From positions 1-50,097 of the IMG/VR virus record IMGVR_UViG_3300032893_000069: DNA of 50,097 bases; one strand, given 5' to 3'. The stretch is from a virus. Positions 602 through 48,144 of the stretch are shown here, piece after piece (positions within the stretch are counted from its first letter, which is position 1; each line of letters starts with the position of its first letter). Below the pieces are notes generated by a model. It had not been told where the DNA came from. It saw only the letters and a program-made list of their open reading frames with translations, and searched no databases. The translations under genes and the position numbers were made by a program.

Positions 602-947
602 CTCTCGAAACTTTTGTGTGCTCTCGGACTAAGCGCGCTCGGGCCGCTTCTAATACGTCCAGAGAGTAATGCGGTATTTCATTTACAACTAAAATTCCAG
701 TTCCACCACAAATTGCGCACTCTTCTAAAACTTCTCCATCGTCACACTCATCACATCCGGCACCTTCACACGAAGGGCAGTCTTGATAATACTCACCGAG
801 AGAGTCGCAATTTTCACATTCGGGATTTTCTTTTAAGTGTTCGATGCAGTCAGCGAGAGAATCAAGGAATCTTACTGCGAGGATCTGGCGCTCATCGCCA
901 AAAGTCAACCTGCGGCGCAACTCTTTTTTTGCTTGCGCTTCGGTCAT
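591..947 (-). CDS. DnaJ-type zinc-finger-like small protein
   Basis: 118 residues. I start it at ATG 947, not at an upstream GTG, because this ATG overlaps the stop of the upstream zinc-ribbon gene as ATGA. The middle holds four CXXC pairs (CENC, CPSC, CDEC, CAIC). Two are followed by the Gly pattern of DnaJ cysteine-rich repeats (CPSCEGAG, CAICGGTG). An N-terminal helix rich in Lys, Arg and Leu and a C-terminal helix flank the metal site. DnaJ zinc fingers bind non-native polypeptides, but no J-domain is present, so its role is unknown. It is the central gene of a minus-strand early operon with a second zinc protein upstream. The window has another DnaJ-like finger inside the co-chaperonin at 1991-2575. 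Confidence 0.8.
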   Translation of the reverse strand: MTEAQAKKELRRRLTFGDERQILAVRFLDSLADCIEHLKENPECENCDSLGEYYQDCPSCEGAGCDECDDGEVLEECAICGGTGILVVNEIPHYSLDVLEAARARLVREHTKVSRGAA

Positions 948-1096
948 ATTGACCACTCCACTTTTTGAAGTGACCCGACCGTAGAATCTTTTATTTCAAA
1001 ACCGCAGTGAGGGCATGTAAATGGGAAATCTTCTTCGGTAACTGGTCCGTCGCCCATGTCTATGTCGTCACCACAATTAGGACAAACACACTTCAT
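944..1096 (-). CDS. Zinc-ribbon small protein
   Basis: A 50-residue protein from ATG 1096 that ends in TGA overlapping the next gene's ATG. The N-terminus carries CVCPNC and the middle CPHCGF, i.e. two knuckles separated by about 20 acidic residues: a typical rubredoxin-like zinc ribbon. Such proteins bind one zinc and often contact nucleic acid or polymerase, but the partner cannot be told from sequence. Its start itself overlaps the stop of a 55-codon leader ORF (1093-1260). Transcription probably starts near 1258. Confidence 0.8.
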   Translation of the reverse strand: MKCVCPNCGDDIDMGDGPVTEEDFPFTCPHCGFEIKDSTVGSLQKVEWSI

Positions 1097-1879: not shown

Positions 1880-2001
1880 TGTACACCAAGCGGCCACCCA
1901 GGACAGCCGCAGCCGCTTATCGTTCGGCTGGACACCAAATCACGAACAGAAGAGATTGTGAAATCCACGTTGGCGATGTGAGGAGAAGAGATGCCAGTTG
2001 A
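1879..2001 (+). CDS. Small basic hypothetical protein
   Basis: A 40-residue ORF whose ATG shares a base with the previous stop (TGATG) and whose end overlaps the next gene by 11 bases. It is rich in Arg and Ala with no domain. The overlaps on both sides argue for coupled translation, but composition gives no further support. Confidence 0.4.
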   Translation: MYTKRPPRTAAAAYRSAGHQITNRRDCEIHVGDVRRRDAS

Positions 2002-2575
2002 ACTGATTCAGCAATCAGAAAACATCCTGTGGGTAGGCGAGACAGGATTCGAAGCCAAAGGCGAACGCATCGCTATCATGCAGGATGAGCACAAGTCCGG
2101 CTACGAATGCTTGCGCTGCATGGACAAAGACAAGCGAACGCTGGACGGGAAAGAAGTATCGGTAATCACCTGCGAAGAGTGCGCCGGCGAAGGCAAGCGG
2201 CAAAAGGCAGGAAACGCAGACCTCACAGTAAAATGCTCCGACTGCGAAGGACGCGGCTACCTGCCCTGCCCGGATTGCGGCGGCAAGGGAACATCCACGG
2301 GGATCGTGCTGCCAGAGTCCAGCAAGGGTGAGCCAACCACGGGGATTGTGGTGAGCAAGGGGCCGGACGCAAAGCTGTACGACCTGGGGCATCGCGTGAT
2401 GTTCCCCAGTTACGCGGGGCATTTGTTCGTGGTGAAGGGCAAGGACAAAAAGAGCGGGAAAGAGAAAACCGTTCGCTTGCGCTTCATCAACGAAGGCGAC
2501 GTGATCGCGCAGTTGTACGGCGAGTTGGAGTACAGGTCGCTGGTTAGCTCGCAGGCGTTGTTTACCAACGAATAG
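1991..2575 (+). CDS. GroES-like co-chaperonin with DnaJ zinc finger inserted in the mobile loop
   Basis: 194 residues; strong ribosome-binding site (GAGGAGAAGAG) before ATG 1991. The GroES fold is split. An N-terminal strand (GERIAIMQDEHKSG, about 24-37) is followed by a cysteine-rich insert (about 38-100). GroES then resumes with TGIVLPESSK (103-112), TTGIVVSKGP, a roof/barrel segment (HRVMFPSYAG) and the closing INEGDVIAQL. The insert has four CXXC pairs (C40/43, C61/64, C82/85, C93/96), three with the DnaJ CXXCXGXG pattern. GroES binds GroEL through the GIVL tip of its mobile loop; here the zinc domain sits immediately before that tip, which is intact. Inference: a phage co-chaperonin that replaces host GroES for folding capsid proteins, with an added substrate-binding or regulatory module. 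It lies just upstream of terminase and the head genes. No GroEL is in the window. Confidence 0.85.
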   Translation: MPVELIQQSENILWVGETGFEAKGERIAIMQDEHKSGYECLRCMDKDKRTLDGKEVSVITCEECAGEGKRQKAGNADLTVKCSDCEGRGYLPCPDCGGKGTSTGIVLPESSKGEPTTGIVVSKGPDAKLYDLGHRVMFPSYAGHLFVVKGKDKKSGKEKTVRLRFINEGDVIAQLYGELEYRSLVSSQALFTNE

Positions 2576-2580
2576 GAAAC

Positions 2581-2664
2581 TTTCATGGATGCCCATTGCT
2601 ATCCTAACGAAATGCCCGCGACACGGATGGGGGCCATCGGACCATCTGGTGGGCATCCATGAAA
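2581..2664. repeat. 15-bp perfect inverted repeat bracketing a micro-ORF and the terminase start
   Basis: TTTCATGGATGCCCA (2581-2595) is exactly complementary to TGGGCATCCATGAAA (2650-2664). Each arm contains a start codon: the micro-ORF ATG (2585) and the terminase ATG (2659). In RNA the stem would bury both starts; in DNA it could be a protein-binding or recombination site. Confidence 0.75.
2585..2662 (+). CDS. Micro-ORF translationally coupled to terminase
   Basis: 25 codons from ATG 2585, preceded by AGGAAA, with its TGA overlapping the terminase ATG at 2659 (ATGA). No domain. Its first and last bases lie in the two arms of a 15-bp inverted repeat, so its translation may open the terminase start. 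Whether the peptide itself matters is unknown. Confidence 0.4.
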   Translation: MDAHCYPNEMPATRMGAIGPSGGHP

Positions 2665-5400
2665 TGGAAAATACTCCCGGTCCCACCAGTAGCGGACGAC
2701 TATGAATTACACTTCCGCAACACGCGGCTAAACAGCCTCGGCTCGCTCTACTGGTTCGCAAAGCACACTCTCGGCTACTCCCGCCTTACCACGCTCCATA
2801 AAGACCTGTGCAAGAGCCTTGAAAACGAGCACCTGTTTTTGGTGATGGAAGTTCCGATGTCGCACTTTAAAGCACTGGACATTCGTACTCCGATACCAAC
2901 ACCCGATGGCTTCAAGCTAATGGGGCACATTAATGTTGGAGACACTGTTTTTGGATCGGACGGTATTCCTGTAAAAGTAACAGGCGTCAGTCCGATTTAT
3001 TTTTCTTCTGATTGCTACGAGTTGGAGTTCACTGGAGGGGACAAAATTGATTGCGATGCCGGACATCTTTGGGAAACGCAATCGCTTGAAGATTACGACA
3101 GAACCAAGCCGAGAATGTATCGCTCAGTGATAAGGACCACAAAAGAAATTTCTTCAAGGATTGATTACGGAAAACAGCGTAATCACAGAGTTAAACTTGC
3201 AAAATCCATTCAATTACCCGATGTGGATTTGCCAATTTCTCCATATGTCCTTGGGTGCTGGCTTGGAGATGGAACGTCTGCGAACGGTTCGATCACTATT
3301 GGGAATTCGGACGAGTGGCTTGCTCACGAAATACGGCGCGAGGGTGAACCGTTAACAAAGGCAAATACCCCATTGAAATGGTGCTTCTATGATGGGAAAT
3401 CAAATTACAGGGATTCTAAAGTCAGGAAATTTGCTTTTGTAACTAGGCTTAGAAAGCTGGGAGTCTTAAATAACAAGCACATACCGCAAGCCTATCTAAG
3501 GTCATCAGCCAGGCAGCGATTGGCCCTCTTACAGGGGCTAATGGATACTGACGGCCACGCTTCCAAATTAGGGCAATGTACTTTTTCAAATACAAACAAG
3601 AATCTAGTGGTGCAAGTAAGGGAATTGGTTTGCTCGCTAGGTCTGAAATGCGGGGAATTGAGAACGTACAAGTCAATGTTGAATCGGAAACACGTTGGAC
3701 TGTTTCACGTCATAACATTTTACTCATTCAAGGATTTTCCTCCATTCCGTATGCCTAGAAAAGTTGCACGGCTGCTAACGCGGTCTCCGCAGTCCATGCA
3801 GTCTTATCGCCATATACGGGCTGCTAGGAGAATCGGGCAACGCTACGTGAAGTGCATCATGGTGGATTCTGCTGACTCTCTTTATTTGGCAGGGGAAGGA
3901 TTTATCCCGACTCACAACACGCGACTTGGAATTTCCCTGTCTATCTGGTGGGCACTTCCATTCGATGAGTACGACGAGAAGCACATGCGCGAATTAGGCT
4001 ACGGGGATGAGTGGATACGCTACATGAAGGCGATCCACGATCAGAATCACCGGACGCTCATCACGCACGAAATTGCTTCCCAGGCAACGAATATCGGGCG
4101 CGACGTGAACGACTGCTACATGAACAACGACACGTTCCGCGCCACGTTTAAGGAAATCATTCCCGATTCAGAGTGTACGTGGAACAACTCCGAAAAGTTC
4201 CAGAAAAGATTGCGCGGCGGAGACGCTTCAACCGGAACATTCGTGTACCGTGGAGTCGGCCAAGCGTTGCAGGGCATCCACGTAAACTCCATCATCCAAG
4301 ACGACAACTTTGGAAAAGAAGCGCAAGACTCCCTGCTCAAAGGCGATGGGCGCATAGTCGAAGATTTGATTAAGTGGCACAAGCAGGTGGGCACGCGCTT
4401 TGACCCGAAGGTGAAGCGAGATCGGCGGCAAGTGGTCATTGGCAATAAGTGGGCGGCGCTGGACCTGAACGGCTACATCAAGAAAAATCAGCCAGAGTTT
4501 AAGTTTGAAAGTCACAGCGCGGAGGGCGGGTGCTGCAAGCGTCACCCAGCAGGAAAGCCTATTCTCCCCGAAGAGTGGACTATTGAACTGCTCCACAAAG
4601 AACGTGACAGGCTTGGGAAGCGAGACTACTCACACTTCTACCTGAACGTGGCGATGCTGCCGGAGGAGCAACTATTCGGTAGTCAGTGGTTGCGTGAATA
4701 CCGCTTTCGGGAAGCAGATCCCCGCTTCTCCAAAGACGACTTGCGCAATGCGCTGATGGTGGAGCACAAGGTCTACGAGGGGACGGCACTCAAGGACTTC
4801 ATGGCCGCGACGCTGGAAATCACAATCATCGTGGACCCGAACCATGCGCGGAAAAACAAGCGCGAGAAACACGTAATCTGGAGCATTGGCTTCGATCCCG
4901 AATCTTCGCGCATCTACTTGCTATCGCTGTGGCAAAAAGACTCCACCTACTCCGTGCTTGTCGAAGAGATGTACAGCCAGTACGCCAACTGGACAATGCG
5001 CAACGGGTTGAAGCAGTTCAAGACTCCCACGGTGTACATGGGGAAAACAGCGCGGGAACTGCTCGCGTTTTATCTGTCGGAGCGCGACAAGCGGGAAAGG
5101 ATTCCGCTGCAAATTGAAGAGTTTGAAGATGACGACTCGCTTGCTGCGATGAAGAACCGGATCGAGTCGCTGGAGCCTACGTTCAAGGCCGCGCAAATCT
5201 GGTGCAATCCAGAGCAGGGCCAGCAGAAAGAATTTGTGGAGGACTACGAGAACTATCCAGCAGGAAAACTGGACGCGCTAGACGTGCTGGGCCACTACCC
5301 GAGAGTAGTAGAGATTGGCGACTCGAAGAATGCGCGTAAGTTCTTACAGGACCAGATGGCAGAGTTTCAGGGCAGACAATCAGGGATTGCAGGGTATTGA
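2659..5400 (+). CDS. terL: Terminase large subunit, intein-containing
   Basis: 913 residues as encoded; about 564 after removal of a 349-residue intein (residues 72-420). The motor ATPase Walker A is a variant, PMSHFK-T, and the intein splits it exactly between Lys and Thr. Walker B-like IIQDDN is near residue 549. The C-terminal nuclease shows VDPNHARK (D726) and LDALDVLGHYP (about 872-879), acidic residues expected for the RNase H-like headful/cos nuclease. The protein translocates DNA into proheads and cuts concatemers. The start ATG overlaps the micro-ORF stop and lies in an inverted repeat. No small terminase was recognised nearby. The P-loop lacks the usual Gly before Lys, as in some other phage terminases. 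Confidence 0.93.
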   Translation: MKWKILPVPPVADDYELHFRNTRLNSLGSLYWFAKHTLGYSRLTTLHKDLCKSLENEHLFLVMEVPMSHFKALDIRTPIPTPDGFKLMGHINVGDTVFGSDGIPVKVTGVSPIYFSSDCYELEFTGGDKIDCDAGHLWETQSLEDYDRTKPRMYRSVIRTTKEISSRIDYGKQRNHRVKLAKSIQLPDVDLPISPYVLGCWLGDGTSANGSITIGNSDEWLAHEIRREGEPLTKANTPLKWCFYDGKSNYRDSKVRKFAFVTRLRKLGVLNNKHIPQAYLRSSARQRLALLQGLMDTDGHASKLGQCTFSNTNKNLVVQVRELVCSLGLKCGELRTYKSMLNRKHVGLFHVITFYSFKDFPPFRMPRKVARLLTRSPQSMQSYRHIRAARRIGQRYVKCIMVDSADSLYLAGEGFIPTHNTRLGISLSIWWALPFDEYDEKHMRELGYGDEWIRYMKAIHDQNHRTLITHEIASQATNIGRDVNDCYMNNDTFRATFKEIIPDSECTWNNSEKFQKRLRGGDASTGTFVYRGVGQALQGIHVNSIIQDDNFGKEAQDSLLKGDGRIVEDLIKWHKQVGTRFDPKVKRDRRQVVIGNKWAALDLNGYIKKNQPEFKFESHSAEGGCCKRHPAGKPILPEEWTIELLHKERDRLGKRDYSHFYLNVAMLPEEQLFGSQWLREYRFREADPRFSKDDLRNALMVEHKVYEGTALKDFMAATLEITIIVDPNHARKNKREKHVIWSIGFDPESSRIYLLSLWQKDSTYSVLVEEMYSQYANWTMRNGLKQFKTPTVYMGKTARELLAFYLSERDKRERIPLQIEEFEDDDSLAAMKNRIESLEPTFKAAQIWCNPEQGQQKEFVEDYENYPAGKLDALDVLGHYPRVVEIGDSKNARKFLQDQMAEFQGRQSGIAGY
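2872..3918 (+). mobile_element. Class-3-like intein with LAGLIDADG endonuclease in terL
   Basis: 349 residues, beginning ALDIRTPIPTPDG (block A with Ala, not Cys or Ser, at position 1) and ending GFIPTHN before Thr+1. Block B has GHLW (H136, W138), block F has YVKCIMV (C399), block G has Thr418. This Trp-Cys-Thr set marks class 3 inteins, which use the block F Cys as first nucleophile. Two LAGLIDADG motifs are visible (LGCWLGDGT about 198-206; LLQGLMDTDG about 290-299), so the homing endonuclease looks intact. The third-codon composition is visibly more AT-rich than in the flanking exteins, in keeping with recent arrival. It interrupts the ATPase P-loop, a favoured insertion point. Confidence 0.85.
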
Positions 5401-5658: not shown

Positions 5659-7635
5659 ATGGCAACTGCCATTACCACCAGCATCGAGAAAGCCGACCGG
5701 GACGACTTCTCGCCCTGTACCATAGAGTTTGGTGCCGATGTCGAAAAAGAAATCAACCATTTCCTCGAACGCCACATCAACGCACGCCTCCAGCAACTCC
5801 GCAACATCCATACCTCCACCCTGCCAAAGTGGAAGCGCATCGCTGAGGGCAGGCCGCTGCAAAAATCCCGCTCGTTTCCGTTCGAGGGAGCTTCTAACCT
5901 AGTCCACCAGACAGCCGGCGAAGCGATTGATGACCTGGCTGCGCGTGTCTTACAGCTTACGTGGATGACTTCCCCGATTGTGCTGTATCGCTACTTCACC
6001 GAAGCGGTGGAGCAGAAGATTGCGGAAGCGTACGCTAAACGTGCAAAGACGCTGATTCAGTTCATGGACTACGCGGCCTACGATCCCCGCGAACTGAACC
6101 TGTACCCGCGAGAAAACAAGTGGTGGTATGACGGCGCGGTGTGCGGACGGTCTTGGGTGATTGTGGCACCGGAGAGCAGAATCGAATCGGTCCACATCGG
6201 CTACGCGGAAGGCAGCAAGAAAGCCGAGTTTGAAAAGAAAACGCTCTACGAAGGTCCGAAGGTAATCAACGCGGACTACGAAGATATTTTGTACGACCCC
6301 GATGTGAAAGTGTTTGAGGAGACGGATCCGCTATTCCGCCGCTGCACACTGACGCAAGCGAAGATTCGGGAGCGCGTGTTCAAGGGAACGTACCGCAAAG
6401 CAGATGCAGAAAAAGTTTTAGAGCAACCCGACCAACCCAACGAAGTAAAGCAGCGCGAAAAGCAGAAAAAAGGAATCACCACTGACACATCGAATGACCG
6501 CACGATGTCCACGTGGGAAATCTACGAATGCTATTTTTCTTGGTGGCACAACGATAGGAAGTTCCGGCTCATTGCGTGGTATCACCTAAAAACGCGCAGA
6601 ATCCTGAACTGCGTTTACAACTTCATTCCCGACAATCAAATTCCGATTCTTGAAACGCGGTTGACCGTAGACGGGCGCGGCTTCCCCGATATTTTGGAGC
6701 ACTACCAAGAAGAAATCTCCACGGCTAAAAACCAGCGCAATGACACAATCACAGTGTCCATGTGGGGCATCAACACAGTAGACCCGAACAACAAAAACTT
6801 GGGGCCAAACTTCCGCCTCGCGCCGAACGTGTTCCTGCCCGTGAAGAAAGACCAGTTCATGCACTACGATGTGGGCAACGCTGCGTTCGCTGGCCTGTCG
6901 CTGGAAAACGAGCAGGCCATGATTATGCAGGCGAAGGAACGCGCTGGCGTGGGTCCTGCAATGTCTGGAGCAGGAGCGGGTGGAACAAACAAGAAGGGCC
7001 AATACTCCGCGATGGGCACGCTGTCCGTGATGCAGGATGGCAACTCCCGCAACGATCACCGAACATCAGACTTCCGCCACTCGCACGTTGCGCTGATGTC
7101 GCTACTTACAGACTTCTACGGATTCTTGGGATTGGGCCGCAAGGGAAGCACATTTGGGCTGGACGACAAGATTCTAGAGCAGGCGCTTGAAGATTACCTC
7201 TCGCGCAAGATGCGGATTCCAACCCGCGCCGCGTCCGCAAGCCTGAACCGCGAAATCAGCAAGCAGAGCCAAATCATTCTCAACCAGGCGCACTCTGCCT
7301 ACGTGAAGGAAATCAGTTCGCAGTTACAGGCATTGATGAACGAAACTTTGCCGATAGAGTACCGCGAATGGTTGCTCGGCGTTGTGAAGGCAAAGACGAT
7401 GCTGATGCAGCAAATCTTCAAAGACTTCCAAGTGTCCGACAATCCAGCAGAATACGTGCCCGATATTCAGTACGAAATCAAAAAGCCCGAAGGAGCACCA
7501 AATGGCTCGCCGCAAGCAGGACCCCAACCAACTCCAATCAATGCGATGGCCACTGCTCTTCAAGGACCCGGAGAAGGCGGAATCCCTCTTCTCGGCGGTG
7601 GGATGGGTGGACCTGCTGGCGGACCTCCGCGCTAA
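5659..7635 (+). CDS. Portal protein
   Basis: 658 residues. The N-terminal region has the portal hallmark SFPFEGASNLVHQ (about 74-86) followed by a helical segment, then a long mixed wing/stem region and a C-terminus rich in Gly and Pro (after about 610). Portals form the dodecameric vertex through which DNA is packaged and ejected and to which the neck proteins attach. Position after terminase and before scaffold and capsid is canonical. The last 134 bases are overlapped in another frame by the next gene, and the Gly/Pro-rich tail may reflect that dual coding. Confidence 0.88.
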   Translation: MATAITTSIEKADRDDFSPCTIEFGADVEKEINHFLERHINARLQQLRNIHTSTLPKWKRIAEGRPLQKSRSFPFEGASNLVHQTAGEAIDDLAARVLQLTWMTSPIVLYRYFTEAVEQKIAEAYAKRAKTLIQFMDYAAYDPRELNLYPRENKWWYDGAVCGRSWVIVAPESRIESVHIGYAEGSKKAEFEKKTLYEGPKVINADYEDILYDPDVKVFEETDPLFRRCTLTQAKIRERVFKGTYRKADAEKVLEQPDQPNEVKQREKQKKGITTDTSNDRTMSTWEIYECYFSWWHNDRKFRLIAWYHLKTRRILNCVYNFIPDNQIPILETRLTVDGRGFPDILEHYQEEISTAKNQRNDTITVSMWGINTVDPNNKNLGPNFRLAPNVFLPVKKDQFMHYDVGNAAFAGLSLENEQAMIMQAKERAGVGPAMSGAGAGGTNKKGQYSAMGTLSVMQDGNSRNDHRTSDFRHSHVALMSLLTDFYGFLGLGRKGSTFGLDDKILEQALEDYLSRKMRIPTRAASASLNREISKQSQIILNQAHSAYVKEISSQLQALMNETLPIEYREWLLGVVKAKTMLMQQIFKDFQVSDNPAEYVPDIQYEIKKPEGAPNGSPQAGPQPTPINAMATALQGPGEGGIPLLGGGMGGPAGGPPR

Positions 7636-10410: not shown

Positions 10411-11373
10411 GTGGCCGGAAACATTCTTGTGCGCAACACCTTCCCACCGCTCCTTGCGGCTGGTCTTCGTTACGTATTTTGGCAAGCCACTGATCTCAAA
10501 GAGCATGCGCCGCAGTACACGCACTACATCAATGAGATGACATCGGAAGATGCCTACGAGATTGACTACGAACTCTCGGGCACTGGACCGATGCCGATGA
10601 TGCAGGAAGGCTCCGCGCCGGCTGCGGACGGCATCATCCAGGGCGGCACCCGGAAGTACGTACACATCCAGTACGGACTCCTGACGGAAGCCACGCGCCA
10701 GCTTGTCGCGGACGACAAGTACGGCATCATTATGAACGTGCCGAAGTCTCACGCACGCTCCGCGCTGTACGCGAAGGAAGCGGTTGCGGCCTCGCTGTTC
10801 AACCTCGGCGGGACCTCCATCACCACCACCAACGGTGCGACGCTGTTCAACACCGCGCAGCCCTTGATGGGCGGGTCGCAGGCAACCACGCTGGCCCCGA
10901 ACATTTCCACGATCATCAATTCGGCTGGCACCTATCCGAACCGGCCCACCCCCGACTCGGACCTGACCAATACTGCCTTGCAGCAAGCCATCACGATGAT
11001 CGCGCTGCAACCGGATGACCGCGGCATCCCCATCCACGTGAAACCGAAGTATCTGGTCCACGCGCAGCAGAACCGCCGCAACGTGCGCGAACTGCTTGGC
11101 TCGGGCGGCGTGCCGGGATCTGCGAACAACGAATTGAACTGGCTCCAGGGCGAGTCGCTGACGGGCCTTGAGTTGAACTACCTGACCACCCCGTTCGGGT
11201 GGGGGTTGCTCACCGACAAGGAAGGGCACATGCTCAAACTTTACGATAGAGAGCCGTTGATGGCGGCAACCGACGACGACTTCAAGACAGAAGTTTTGCT
11301 CTTCAAATCGACGCAACGTTTCAGCGTGGGCGCGACGAGCTGGCGTGGGACCTGGTGGTCTTTCGGAAGTTGA
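10411..11373 (+). CDS. Major capsid protein, HK97 fold
   Basis: 320 residues from GTG 10411 with GAGAGG upstream. The protein shows the usual order: N-terminal arm, an E-loop-like region (LSGTGPMPMM), a P-domain with the long spine helix (KSHARSALYAKEAVAASLF, about 111-129), and an A-domain near HVKPKYLVHAQQN...VRELLG...ELNWLQG. The C-terminus ends in aromatic Gly-rich strands. Position, length and a separate scaffold gene fit. Flanked on both sides by HNH genes. A short part of its A-domain resembles the Tat-signal protein at 1520-1879. Confidence 0.85.
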   Translation: MAGNILVRNTFPPLLAAGLRYVFWQATDLKEHAPQYTHYINEMTSEDAYEIDYELSGTGPMPMMQEGSAPAADGIIQGGTRKYVHIQYGLLTEATRQLVADDKYGIIMNVPKSHARSALYAKEAVAASLFNLGGTSITTTNGATLFNTAQPLMGGSQATTLAPNISTIINSAGTYPNRPTPDSDLTNTALQQAITMIALQPDDRGIPIHVKPKYLVHAQQNRRNVRELLGSGGVPGSANNELNWLQGESLTGLELNYLTTPFGWGLLTDKEGHMLKLYDREPLMAATDDDFKTEVLLFKSTQRFSVGATSWRGTWWSFGS

Positions 11374-22858: not shown

Positions 22859-24142
22859 GTGCGCATCTGCTTCATTTCTCGCTGGAATGAGGGCGGATGG
22901 TTCGCTTGGCTCTGTAAGCAAGCGGGCCATGACGTTATGCTTGTCGTTGAGGACGACCATTACGCCAAAGCCCTCTCCGGCCTAATTGATGCAAAGCCGT
23001 CTCCCGGAAACGCAGCCGACTACGATCTCATTGTTTACGACACCAGCGGTCTTGGTGAAGATGCAGACGAATCCCGCCTGATTACCCCCACCATCGGTGG
23101 CAGCAAACTAGCAGACACTCTTGAACATGATCGCGTAGCGGGCCTTGAATTTATGGAACGCTGCGGCATTCGTGTGCCTCCGTGGGAGCACTTCACGGAC
23201 GTTGCTGACGGCATCAGATATATCAAGCAAAGAAAACGGCCTGTAGTTTTTAAGCCTTGCGGGGATGGAGCCGATACATCATGCACCTACGTATCAACGT
23301 CGGCGGAAGACATGCTCCAGTACATCGACGTGCTCTACCGGAAGAATCCGCAGAAGGAATTTGTACTGCAAGAAGTTGTGAAGGGGACCGAAGTTTCCGT
23401 AGAGATGTGGATGAACGAGAGCGGCTTCTACGCTGTCAACATGACACTGGAAGCGAAGAAGCTCATGGCAGGCAATATTGGCCCTGCTACCGGATGCGCC
23501 GGGAATGTGTTGTGGATGGCGGGGCTTGGTGAGCCAACCGTATTCCAGCGTGGATTAAAAAAGGCGTTTGAGCCGCTGAGGGAACTTGGCTACGTCGGGA
23601 TGATTGACTTGAATTCAATCGTCACCGACGAAGATGTGTTTGGGCTTGAATGGACGCCGCGTTTTGGCTACGAAGGAACATGCAATCTGACGCGCCTTCT
23701 ACCGATAGACTTTGGGGAATTCATGGGGCGCATCGCTGAAAACGCACCCATGCCAACGCTCACGCCGAAAGAAGCGTTCTGCTCCTCCATCCGAATCGGC
23801 ATCCCTCCTTACCCGCTATCCGAACTGCCTAAAAAACTTTACCGAGAGGGCGTTCCAATCGAAGGATTATCTCCTGATAAGTTAGAGCATTTCTTCGCCA
23901 GAGACGTTCGCTTGGAAGAAAATAATGAGGACCGACTTGAAACGGCGGGCGTGGACGGTTGGATCGGGTCCGTGCTCGCTGTGGGACCAACGCTACACAA
24001 TTCATTCTCGGCTGCAACCGACATGGTGAAGGCGCTAAAAATTCCAGACATGATGTACCGAAACGATCTTGAACCCAATTTCGTGAAAAGGTATCTTGAA
24101 CTCAGAGACGGTGGTTGGCTCAGGACAAGCTACGGAACATGA
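22859..24142 (+). CDS. ATP-grasp ligase, PurD-like
   Basis: 427 residues from GTG 22859. An N-terminal Rossmann-like half (MRICFISRWNEGGWFAWLC...GHDVMLVVED) precedes an ATP-grasp domain. Visible elements: RKRPVVFKPCGDGADTSCTY (ATP loop), EFVLQEVVKGTEVSVEMWM (hinge), GLEWTPRFGYEG (metal-binding end, compare the E-N-R-F-G of PurD). PurD joins phosphoribosylamine and glycine using ATP. Whether this homologue keeps that substrate is not clear. A purine enzyme between internal virion and tail genes is unusual; base or protein modification is an alternative. The stop overlaps the next gene (ATGATG/TGA). Confidence 0.75.
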   Translation: MRICFISRWNEGGWFAWLCKQAGHDVMLVVEDDHYAKALSGLIDAKPSPGNAADYDLIVYDTSGLGEDADESRLITPTIGGSKLADTLEHDRVAGLEFMERCGIRVPPWEHFTDVADGIRYIKQRKRPVVFKPCGDGADTSCTYVSTSAEDMLQYIDVLYRKNPQKEFVLQEVVKGTEVSVEMWMNESGFYAVNMTLEAKKLMAGNIGPATGCAGNVLWMAGLGEPTVFQRGLKKAFEPLRELGYVGMIDLNSIVTDEDVFGLEWTPRFGYEGTCNLTRLLPIDFGEFMGRIAENAPMPTLTPKEAFCSSIRIGIPPYPLSELPKKLYREGVPIEGLSPDKLEHFFARDVRLEENNEDRLETAGVDGWIGSVLAVGPTLHNSFSAATDMVKALKIPDMMYRNDLEPNFVKRYLELRDGGWLRTSYGT

Positions 24143-46668: not shown

Positions 46669-47234
<566 letters not shown>

Positions 47235-47291
47235 AACTGTTCTCCTTTTTACCAGCCAGCAGAACGACTCCCACACGCCAAGCAACTTGCC

Positions 47292-47861
<570 letters not shown>

Positions 47862-47876
47862 AACTGTTCTCCTTCT

Positions 47877-47897
47877 CGCCAGTTAATCACGCTGGCG
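47877..47897 (-). promoter_or_regulatory. Leader hairpin with GTGATTAA loop
   Basis: CGCCAG (47877-47882) pairs with CTGGCG (47892-47897). On the transcript the loop contains GTGATTA. It lies directly before the Shine-Dalgarno of the alanine-rich gene. One of four similar leaders. Confidence 0.6.
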
Positions 47898-47917
47898 CGT
47901 GGTGTCTGTACTGCGCT

Positions 47918-47940
47918 CGCCTTGCCTCTCACTCAAGGCG
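47918..47940. promoter_or_regulatory. Promoter-region palindrome
   Basis: CGCCTTG (47918-47924), 9-base spacer, CAAGGCG (47934-47940), in the region where the promoter of the alanine-rich gene should lie. A -35-like TTGAGT overlaps it; no convincing -10 is visible. Confidence 0.4.
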
Positions 47941-47955
47941 AACCGGGCAGGACAG

Positions 47956-48144
47956 TCACTTCGGTTCTGCCGGATTCAGCAGAAGGGCTGCCTGCTCGGT
48001 AATGTGCTTTTGGACGCGATGCAGTTTAGACCACGCCGGCGAAATGTAACCTGCTCCATCTTCGCGGGAGATCGCTATTTTAATCTGCTCGATCACGCGA
48101 GCTGCATCCACTAACGCTTTGTATTCTGTGAGAGTGTTTGTCAT
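47956..48144 (-). CDS. Small helical protein, paralogue of 46361-46549
   Basis: 62 residues from ATG 48144 (AAAGGAGAAAAACG upstream; a longer frame includes non-coding leader). Shares EYKALVDAA and SPAWSKL with the paralogue. All-helical. It has its own promoter, palindrome and leader hairpin. Confidence 0.65.
   Translation of the reverse strand: MTNTLTEYKALVDAARVIEQIKIAISREDGAGYISPAWSKLHRVQKHITEQAALLLNPAEPK

Follow-up and report, generated by a model that had tools for sequence, protein, structure and literature searches.

The mobile loop of GroES, the part of this co-chaperonin that grips GroEL, is usually short and flexible. In the virus record investigated here (50,097 bases, referred to as the window), an open reading frame of 194 codons at 1991-2575 encodes a GroES-type protein in which this very loop houses a cysteine-rich, DnaJ-type insert. 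This raises the question of whether such a protein could still act as a lid on GroEL and, if so, what a putative zinc domain would contribute at the contact site.

An interrupted GroES gene beside packaging genes

The initial annotation had described a GroES fold broken ahead of its GIVL tip by a CXXC-rich insert, encoded next to packaging and head genes. Both points held on closer inspection: 72 residues separate the first strand from the tip, corresponding to a net insert of about 63, and the terminase gene, followed by portal and capsid genes, lies directly downstream of 1991-2575. The features of the locus are:

1980..1985, + strand: ribosome-binding site GAGGAG, 5 nt ahead of the ATG (sequence)
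1991..2575, + strand: GroES/DnaJ-type zinc-domain gene (P0001, 194 aa; open reading frame, Pfam Cpn10 match, 31 further viral contigs)
2066..2083, + strand: first GroES strand, residues 26-31, ERIAIM (alignment A10, AF2 strand, joined-flank tests)
2099..2290, + strand: inserted DnaJ-type cysteine-rich domain, residues 37-100 (1exk profile match, invariant cysteines)
2108..2119, + strand: CXXC motif 1, C40/C43, CLRCMDKD, glycines degenerate (sequence)
2171..2182, + strand: CXXC motif 2, C61/C64, CEECAGEG (sequence)
2234..2245, + strand: CXXC motif 3, C82/C85, CSDCEGRG (sequence)
2267..2278, + strand: CXXC motif 4, C93/C96, CPDCGGKG (sequence)
2300..2314, + strand: mobile-loop tip GIVLP, residues 104-108, predicted GroEL contact (alignment with ordinary GroES; triad in most relatives)
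2321..2572, + strand: remaining GroES barrel and group-specific C-terminal hairpin and helix (Pfam Cpn10 at 99-153; AF2 model)
2360..2389, + strand: shortened roof region, G124-G133 (8 residues versus 17 in most viral GroES)
2659..5400, + strand: large terminase subunit (TerL) with intein (PHROG terminase, LAGLIDADG_3; homologue in related phages)
5659-7635: portal gene
10411-11373: capsid gene

The intein within 2659-5400 breaks the Walker A motif of TerL (HFK/A...IPTHN/T, slashes marking its ends). It starts with Ala, carries a W in AGHLW and a C in YVKCIMVDS, and is followed by a T after the splice site, all in line with a class 3 intein; a LAGLIDADG domain is present in addition. An intein occupies the same site in the TerL of contig L031 (3670-6531), while the terminases of L004 and L006 are free of it. 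Elsewhere in the window, a phosphoribosylglycinamide synthetase ATP-grasp domain match (PF01071, E=1e-10) was recorded at 22859-24142 (+) among tail-region genes, and a long frame with extended poly-serine runs at 46725-48002 (+) is probably low-complexity or spurious.

Residues 99-153 of the window protein match the Pfam family Cpn10 (PF00166) with E=7e-6 and 26.4 bits, above the cut-off of 21.1, and all 19 proteins of the relative set A5 match it as well (best 3.4e-12). The flanks of the insert were then considered jointly. A profile of five window-like (group A) proteins with the insert taken out matched PDB GroES chains at E=3.2e-15, 2.7e-10, and 1.9e-8, with the best alignment, to 7ekq_R (Cpn20), beginning at the first strand; hhalign against a small GroES profile gave Prob 97.4 and E=9.8e-12. 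The insert-containing profile reached only 1.2e-8 against the PDB and aligned from the tip onward only. The reading of both flanks as parts of one GroES fold thus stands. On the level of single sequences, joining the N-terminal flank raised the scores of L004 (28.2 to 40.0 bits), L102 (30.9 to 45.1), and L109 (23.8 to 39.2) well above every shuffle. The gain of the window protein itself, from 16.9 to 22.4 bits, is marginal compared with shuffled N-terminal flanks (mean 18.9, best of 20 at 21.8), and L015, L006, and some further proteins show gains inside the shuffle range.

Unguided MAFFT alignment (A10) placed ERIAIM of the window protein against DRVIVK of ordinary GroES and the insert between this first strand and the GIVLP tip. 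An AF2 model calculated from a 46-row alignment (mean pLDDT 82, pTM 0.62; insert approximately 78-94, tip approximately 55) contains a strand at 26-31, strands at 117-175, and a helix at 178-191; since the input held ordinary GroES rows, this model is consistent with the alignment and not independent of it. An earlier run from six close relatives had yielded no usable model (pLDDT 30.5). Leading PDB matches in Foldseek are GroES chains, several of which (8wuw, 1wnr, 1aon) bridge the insert in alignments of 165-172 columns against targets of 86-99 residues. Of the 18 viral matches at E<=0.001, those with a name are GroES, Cpn10, or co-chaperonin entries and, from Aeromonas phage 65.2, a head assembly chaperone. 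Joined flanks and model agree in showing first strand and barrel on either side of the mobile loop, and the proposed location of the insert within the mobile-loop segment is borne out by the alignment and the alignment-based model.

Conservation was counted over 24 distinct aligned proteins. The tip, GIVLP at residues 104-108 of the window protein, aligns with that of ordinary GroES and is intact, as had been claimed; among most relatives it is of the IVL, III, VII, or IVI type, and the hydrophobic triad plus proline is found in 20/24. Tips are weak in L015 (LVATP) and L100 (GIALA), and some members may therefore not bind GroEL. The strand-to-tip segment comprises 61-89 residues in the 24 proteins versus 9-11 in 22 ordinary viral GroES. 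A point absent from the initial annotation is the loss of the GroES roof hairpin in all 24: the roof region is reduced to 8-10 residues (8 in the window protein) versus 16-18 for all but one of the 22 ordinary proteins, and longer loop and roof loss co-occur without exception (24/24). The roof is not a necessary co-chaperonin feature, because functional gp31 is also without one (PMC6318259).

The DnaJ-type cysteine-rich insert

The insert carries four CXXC pairs, three of them (motifs 2-4) with the reported CXXCXGXG spacing and motif 1 without the glycines. Its match to the Pfam family DnaJ_CXXCXGXG (residues 54-100, E=7e-4, 20.3 bits) stays below the cut-off of 32.7, which rules out assignment to this family, and we therefore speak of a DnaJ-type domain only. 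The DnaJ central domain was matched at E<=0.05 by 13/19 proteins of A5. Support for the DnaJ-type nature claimed before comes from a profile of 15 inserts, which aligned over its full length with DnaJ of E. coli (1exk; E=7e-4, 62/62 positions, all eight cysteines in register) and also matched human DNAJA3 (E=6e-4). Pfam scans of the window protein and the A5 set contained no J domain; consequently, no Hsp70 partner is expected.

All eight cysteines are invariant in the 24 proteins. This constancy, together with the better GroES match of the joined flanks, argues that the insert is more than a chance occurrence, and two zinc ions may be bound per insert. The motif spacings are 21/21/11 in the window protein and 13-14/8-33/21 in the longer group B proteins; those of E. 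coli DnaJ are about 17/22/14. Zinc pairing in DnaJ is nested, motif 1 with 4 and motif 2 with 3. The outer two spacings of the insert sum to 31-36 in nearly all proteins, which would fit a nested 1-4/2-3 pairing here without proving it. The degenerate motif is motif 1 in group A and motif 3 in group B. Within group A, the insert is better conserved than the GroES part (67% versus 52%), including non-cysteine stretches such as KAGNxxLTVKCSDC.

Two further cysteine-rich frames lie upstream on the opposite strand. A second small four-CXXC protein (591-956, -), 1 kb from the GroES gene, shows a weak DnaJ_CXXCXGXG match (E=0.004) and has its only other carrier among the fetched loci in the near-identical contig L001; it is possibly a partner or source of such domains. 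The short frame at 944-1096 (-) encodes two CXXC pairs (CPNCGDD, CPHCGFE) and is zinc-ribbon-like.

Relatives and link to the terminase

Searching viral databases for the same fusion revealed the architecture in 31 IMG/VR contigs besides the window and in one metagenome-bin contig, at identities down to about 22%. Nine IMG/VR contigs form the window-like group A. A degenerate DNA pattern (CXXCXGXG joined to the tip) retrieved 22 contigs, 21 of them with the architecture and mostly belonging to group B, a second group of longer proteins (about 270-320 aa); L065 and four distant members, L100, L102, L103, and L109, came from profile searches. Contig L118 ends before the insert. Group B proteins possess a conserved N-terminal region of approximately 100-130 residues, apparently fused to the GroES part (e.g., L037:879-1715, -) and without a Pfam match, and their best-conserved part is the tip-adjacent GroES sequence (66%).

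None of the GroES frames listed for ordinary viral GroES in the 80 fetched loci has a CXXC insert. Named phage and plasmid records gave no match at useful E-values, with tblastn of the window protein against phages and plasmids returning none, and a first GTDB scan with group A only found nothing. Three candidates were discarded: a Rhodobacteraceae phage portal protein (H5), a weak tblastn match of L006 in phages judged to be chance; L010, in which a small unrelated frame matched only two CXXC motifs; and L057 from a Methanoregulaceae bin as a cellular gene, since its 3.3-kb contig carries a homologous phage terminase. The latter is probably a misbinned phage.

Every contig long enough to show TerL carries a homologous one near the GroES gene, usually within 3 kb downstream and, in L073, L022, and L028, on the opposite strand. 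In a quick terminase tree with arbitrary root, the 28 gene-bearing rows cluster strongly (5 changes versus 23 with shuffled labels). The gene is found in none of a sister set of 46 terminase rows, 19 of which have at least 4 kb of upstream sequence. This clustering and the gene-free sister set indicate that the gene is a stable trait of one phage lineage, with L074 as a possible loss. No Cpn60 was detected in 16 viral records, some of them fragments, while the control search was positive in 14/14 genomes. A lid would hence have to act on the GroEL of the host.

Proposed function and comparison with known systems

We consider a gp31-like, phage-encoded lid for host GroEL, equipped with zinc arms at its rim and serving virion proteins, to be the best reading (probability about 0.62). 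The GroES barrel would assemble into a heptameric lid whose hydrophobic GIVLP tips dock onto the apical domains of host GroEL. The first limb of the mobile loop is predicted to accommodate an entire DnaJ-type hairpin domain with two zinc ions, the neck of which would be clasped by zinc through nested CXXC pairing (1-4, 2-3). Such a clasp may hold the tip out on a stiff, long stalk and place seven zinc arms at the rim through which clients enter. The missing roof hairpin and the longer loop are expected to increase the height of the cage and to leave its top open, in analogy to T4 gp31. Most likely, the arms would retain or orient virion proteins in a non-native state ahead of their encapsulation, with capsid, portal, and terminase, all encoded by neighboring genes, as candidate clients. 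Two observations favor this role: no part of the group A proteins is better conserved than the insert, and ZnJ2, a DnaJ-like zinc protein that stands alone and has no J domain, binds zinc and prevents client aggregation (PMC5818400). Within this picture, architecture, position, conservation, and linkage to packaging genes are established, and ring formation as well as the binding of zinc, GroEL, and clients are inferred. Seven inserts of approximately 7 kDa, if directed inward, would take up approximately 60,000 cubic angstrom by our own estimate, which would run counter to a larger cage. The capsid protein of the window (35 kDa) would fit an ordinary cage. The more specific proposal that a client-holding Hsp40-type zinc domain and an Hsp10 lid are united in one chain, seven arms capturing non-native virion proteins at the GroEL mouth before the same chain closes the chamber, is plausible yet tentative, at somewhat below even odds. 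If true, substrate choice would become a property of the lid.

The main rival holds that the zinc domain binds no client, but stiffens and lengthens the mobile loop, raises the dome off GroEL, and sets the affinity, a folded domain thereby doing what the longer flexible loop does in gp31. Loop extension and roof loss, which occur together in 24/24 proteins, are the very two changes setting gp31 apart (PMC6318259), and arms of varying length (8-33 residues between motifs 2 and 3) around unvarying cysteines suggest that the zinc scaffold counts for more than a surface. The conservation of the group A insert above the GroES part, KAGNxxLTVKCSDC included, exceeds the need of a bare spacer, and we regard this explanation as rather unlikely.

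The remaining readings are less probable still. The GroES fold might have ceased to serve as a GroEL lid, its barrel and the zinc domain instead acting on packaging proteins as an adaptor or assembly factor. The adjoining terminase gene, the eroded tips of L015 and L100, and the extra N-terminal region of approximately 100 residues in group B, without a named Pfam family, point this way; retention of the hydrophobic triad and proline in 20/24 proteins and of the tip-adjacent sequence as best-conserved part of group B speaks against it and makes it improbable. For a redox- or zinc-responsive lid, in which oxidation or zinc loss would alter the loop neck and switch GroEL binding, one may cite the eight invariant cysteines and the thiol activity reported for the DnaJ cysteine-rich domain (discussed in PMC5818400). 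However, we found nothing pointing to redox-gated folding of phage heads, and the related ZnJ2 is a holdase independent of its own thiols (PMC5818400), leaving this switch highly improbable. An assembly artefact or chance fusion of two frames, for which no favorable point was found, is refuted by independent contigs: contigs from numerous separate data sets share a single open frame with all eight cysteines kept, at identities as low as about 22%, so that the likelihood of such an artefact is practically negligible. The preferred reading remains the gp31-like lid with zinc arms.

While its parts are already known, the combination is undescribed in the literature searched (mostly outside subscription journals), which yielded no precedent for a zinc finger or DnaJ domain in a GroES protein; the statement that no characterized GroES is known to have this architecture agrees with this. 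A folded zinc domain kept in the mobile loop by a whole phage lineage offers a natural test of how far a lid can be re-engineered, of substrate choice by the lid, and of the means by which phages divert host GroEL to virion proteins. The finding further marks a conserved and probably important gene of uncultured phages; annotation would otherwise label it plain GroES, or overlook it because the insert hides the match.

With GroES/Cpn10 (PF00166; viral PHROG 3188), the phage proteins share the DRVIV first strand, the GIVLP-type tip, the GEVVAVG and GDRVLFxKYAG segments, and, according to the model, the barrel fold. They differ by the four-CXXC loop domain, the missing roof hairpin, and additional parts at the N-terminus (group B) or C-terminus (group A). 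Plastid Cpn20 consists of two GroES barrels in tandem without a zinc insert. In common with the DnaJ/Hsp40 cysteine-rich domain (PF00684; 1exk), BSD2, and ZnJ2 are the four CXXC motifs and two long inter-site arms, the window protein having three CXXCXGXG motifs; the differences are the lack of a J domain, one degenerate motif, and the placement of the domain inside another fold. In T4 gp31, the mobile loop is longer, the roof loops are absent, and the cage is 8% larger; the major capsid protein depends on this lid, and the loop and roof changes are believed to allow folding of the large capsid protein, gp23, by GroEL-gp31 (PMC6318259). The gp31 loop is a flexible chain of 22 residues without a zinc domain (PMC6318259), and capsid folding has been demonstrated for gp31, whereas here it is suggested by the gene neighborhood with terminase, portal, and capsid. 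Both would nevertheless be phage lids with a longer mobile loop and no roof, encoded by tailed phages without a GroEL of their own.
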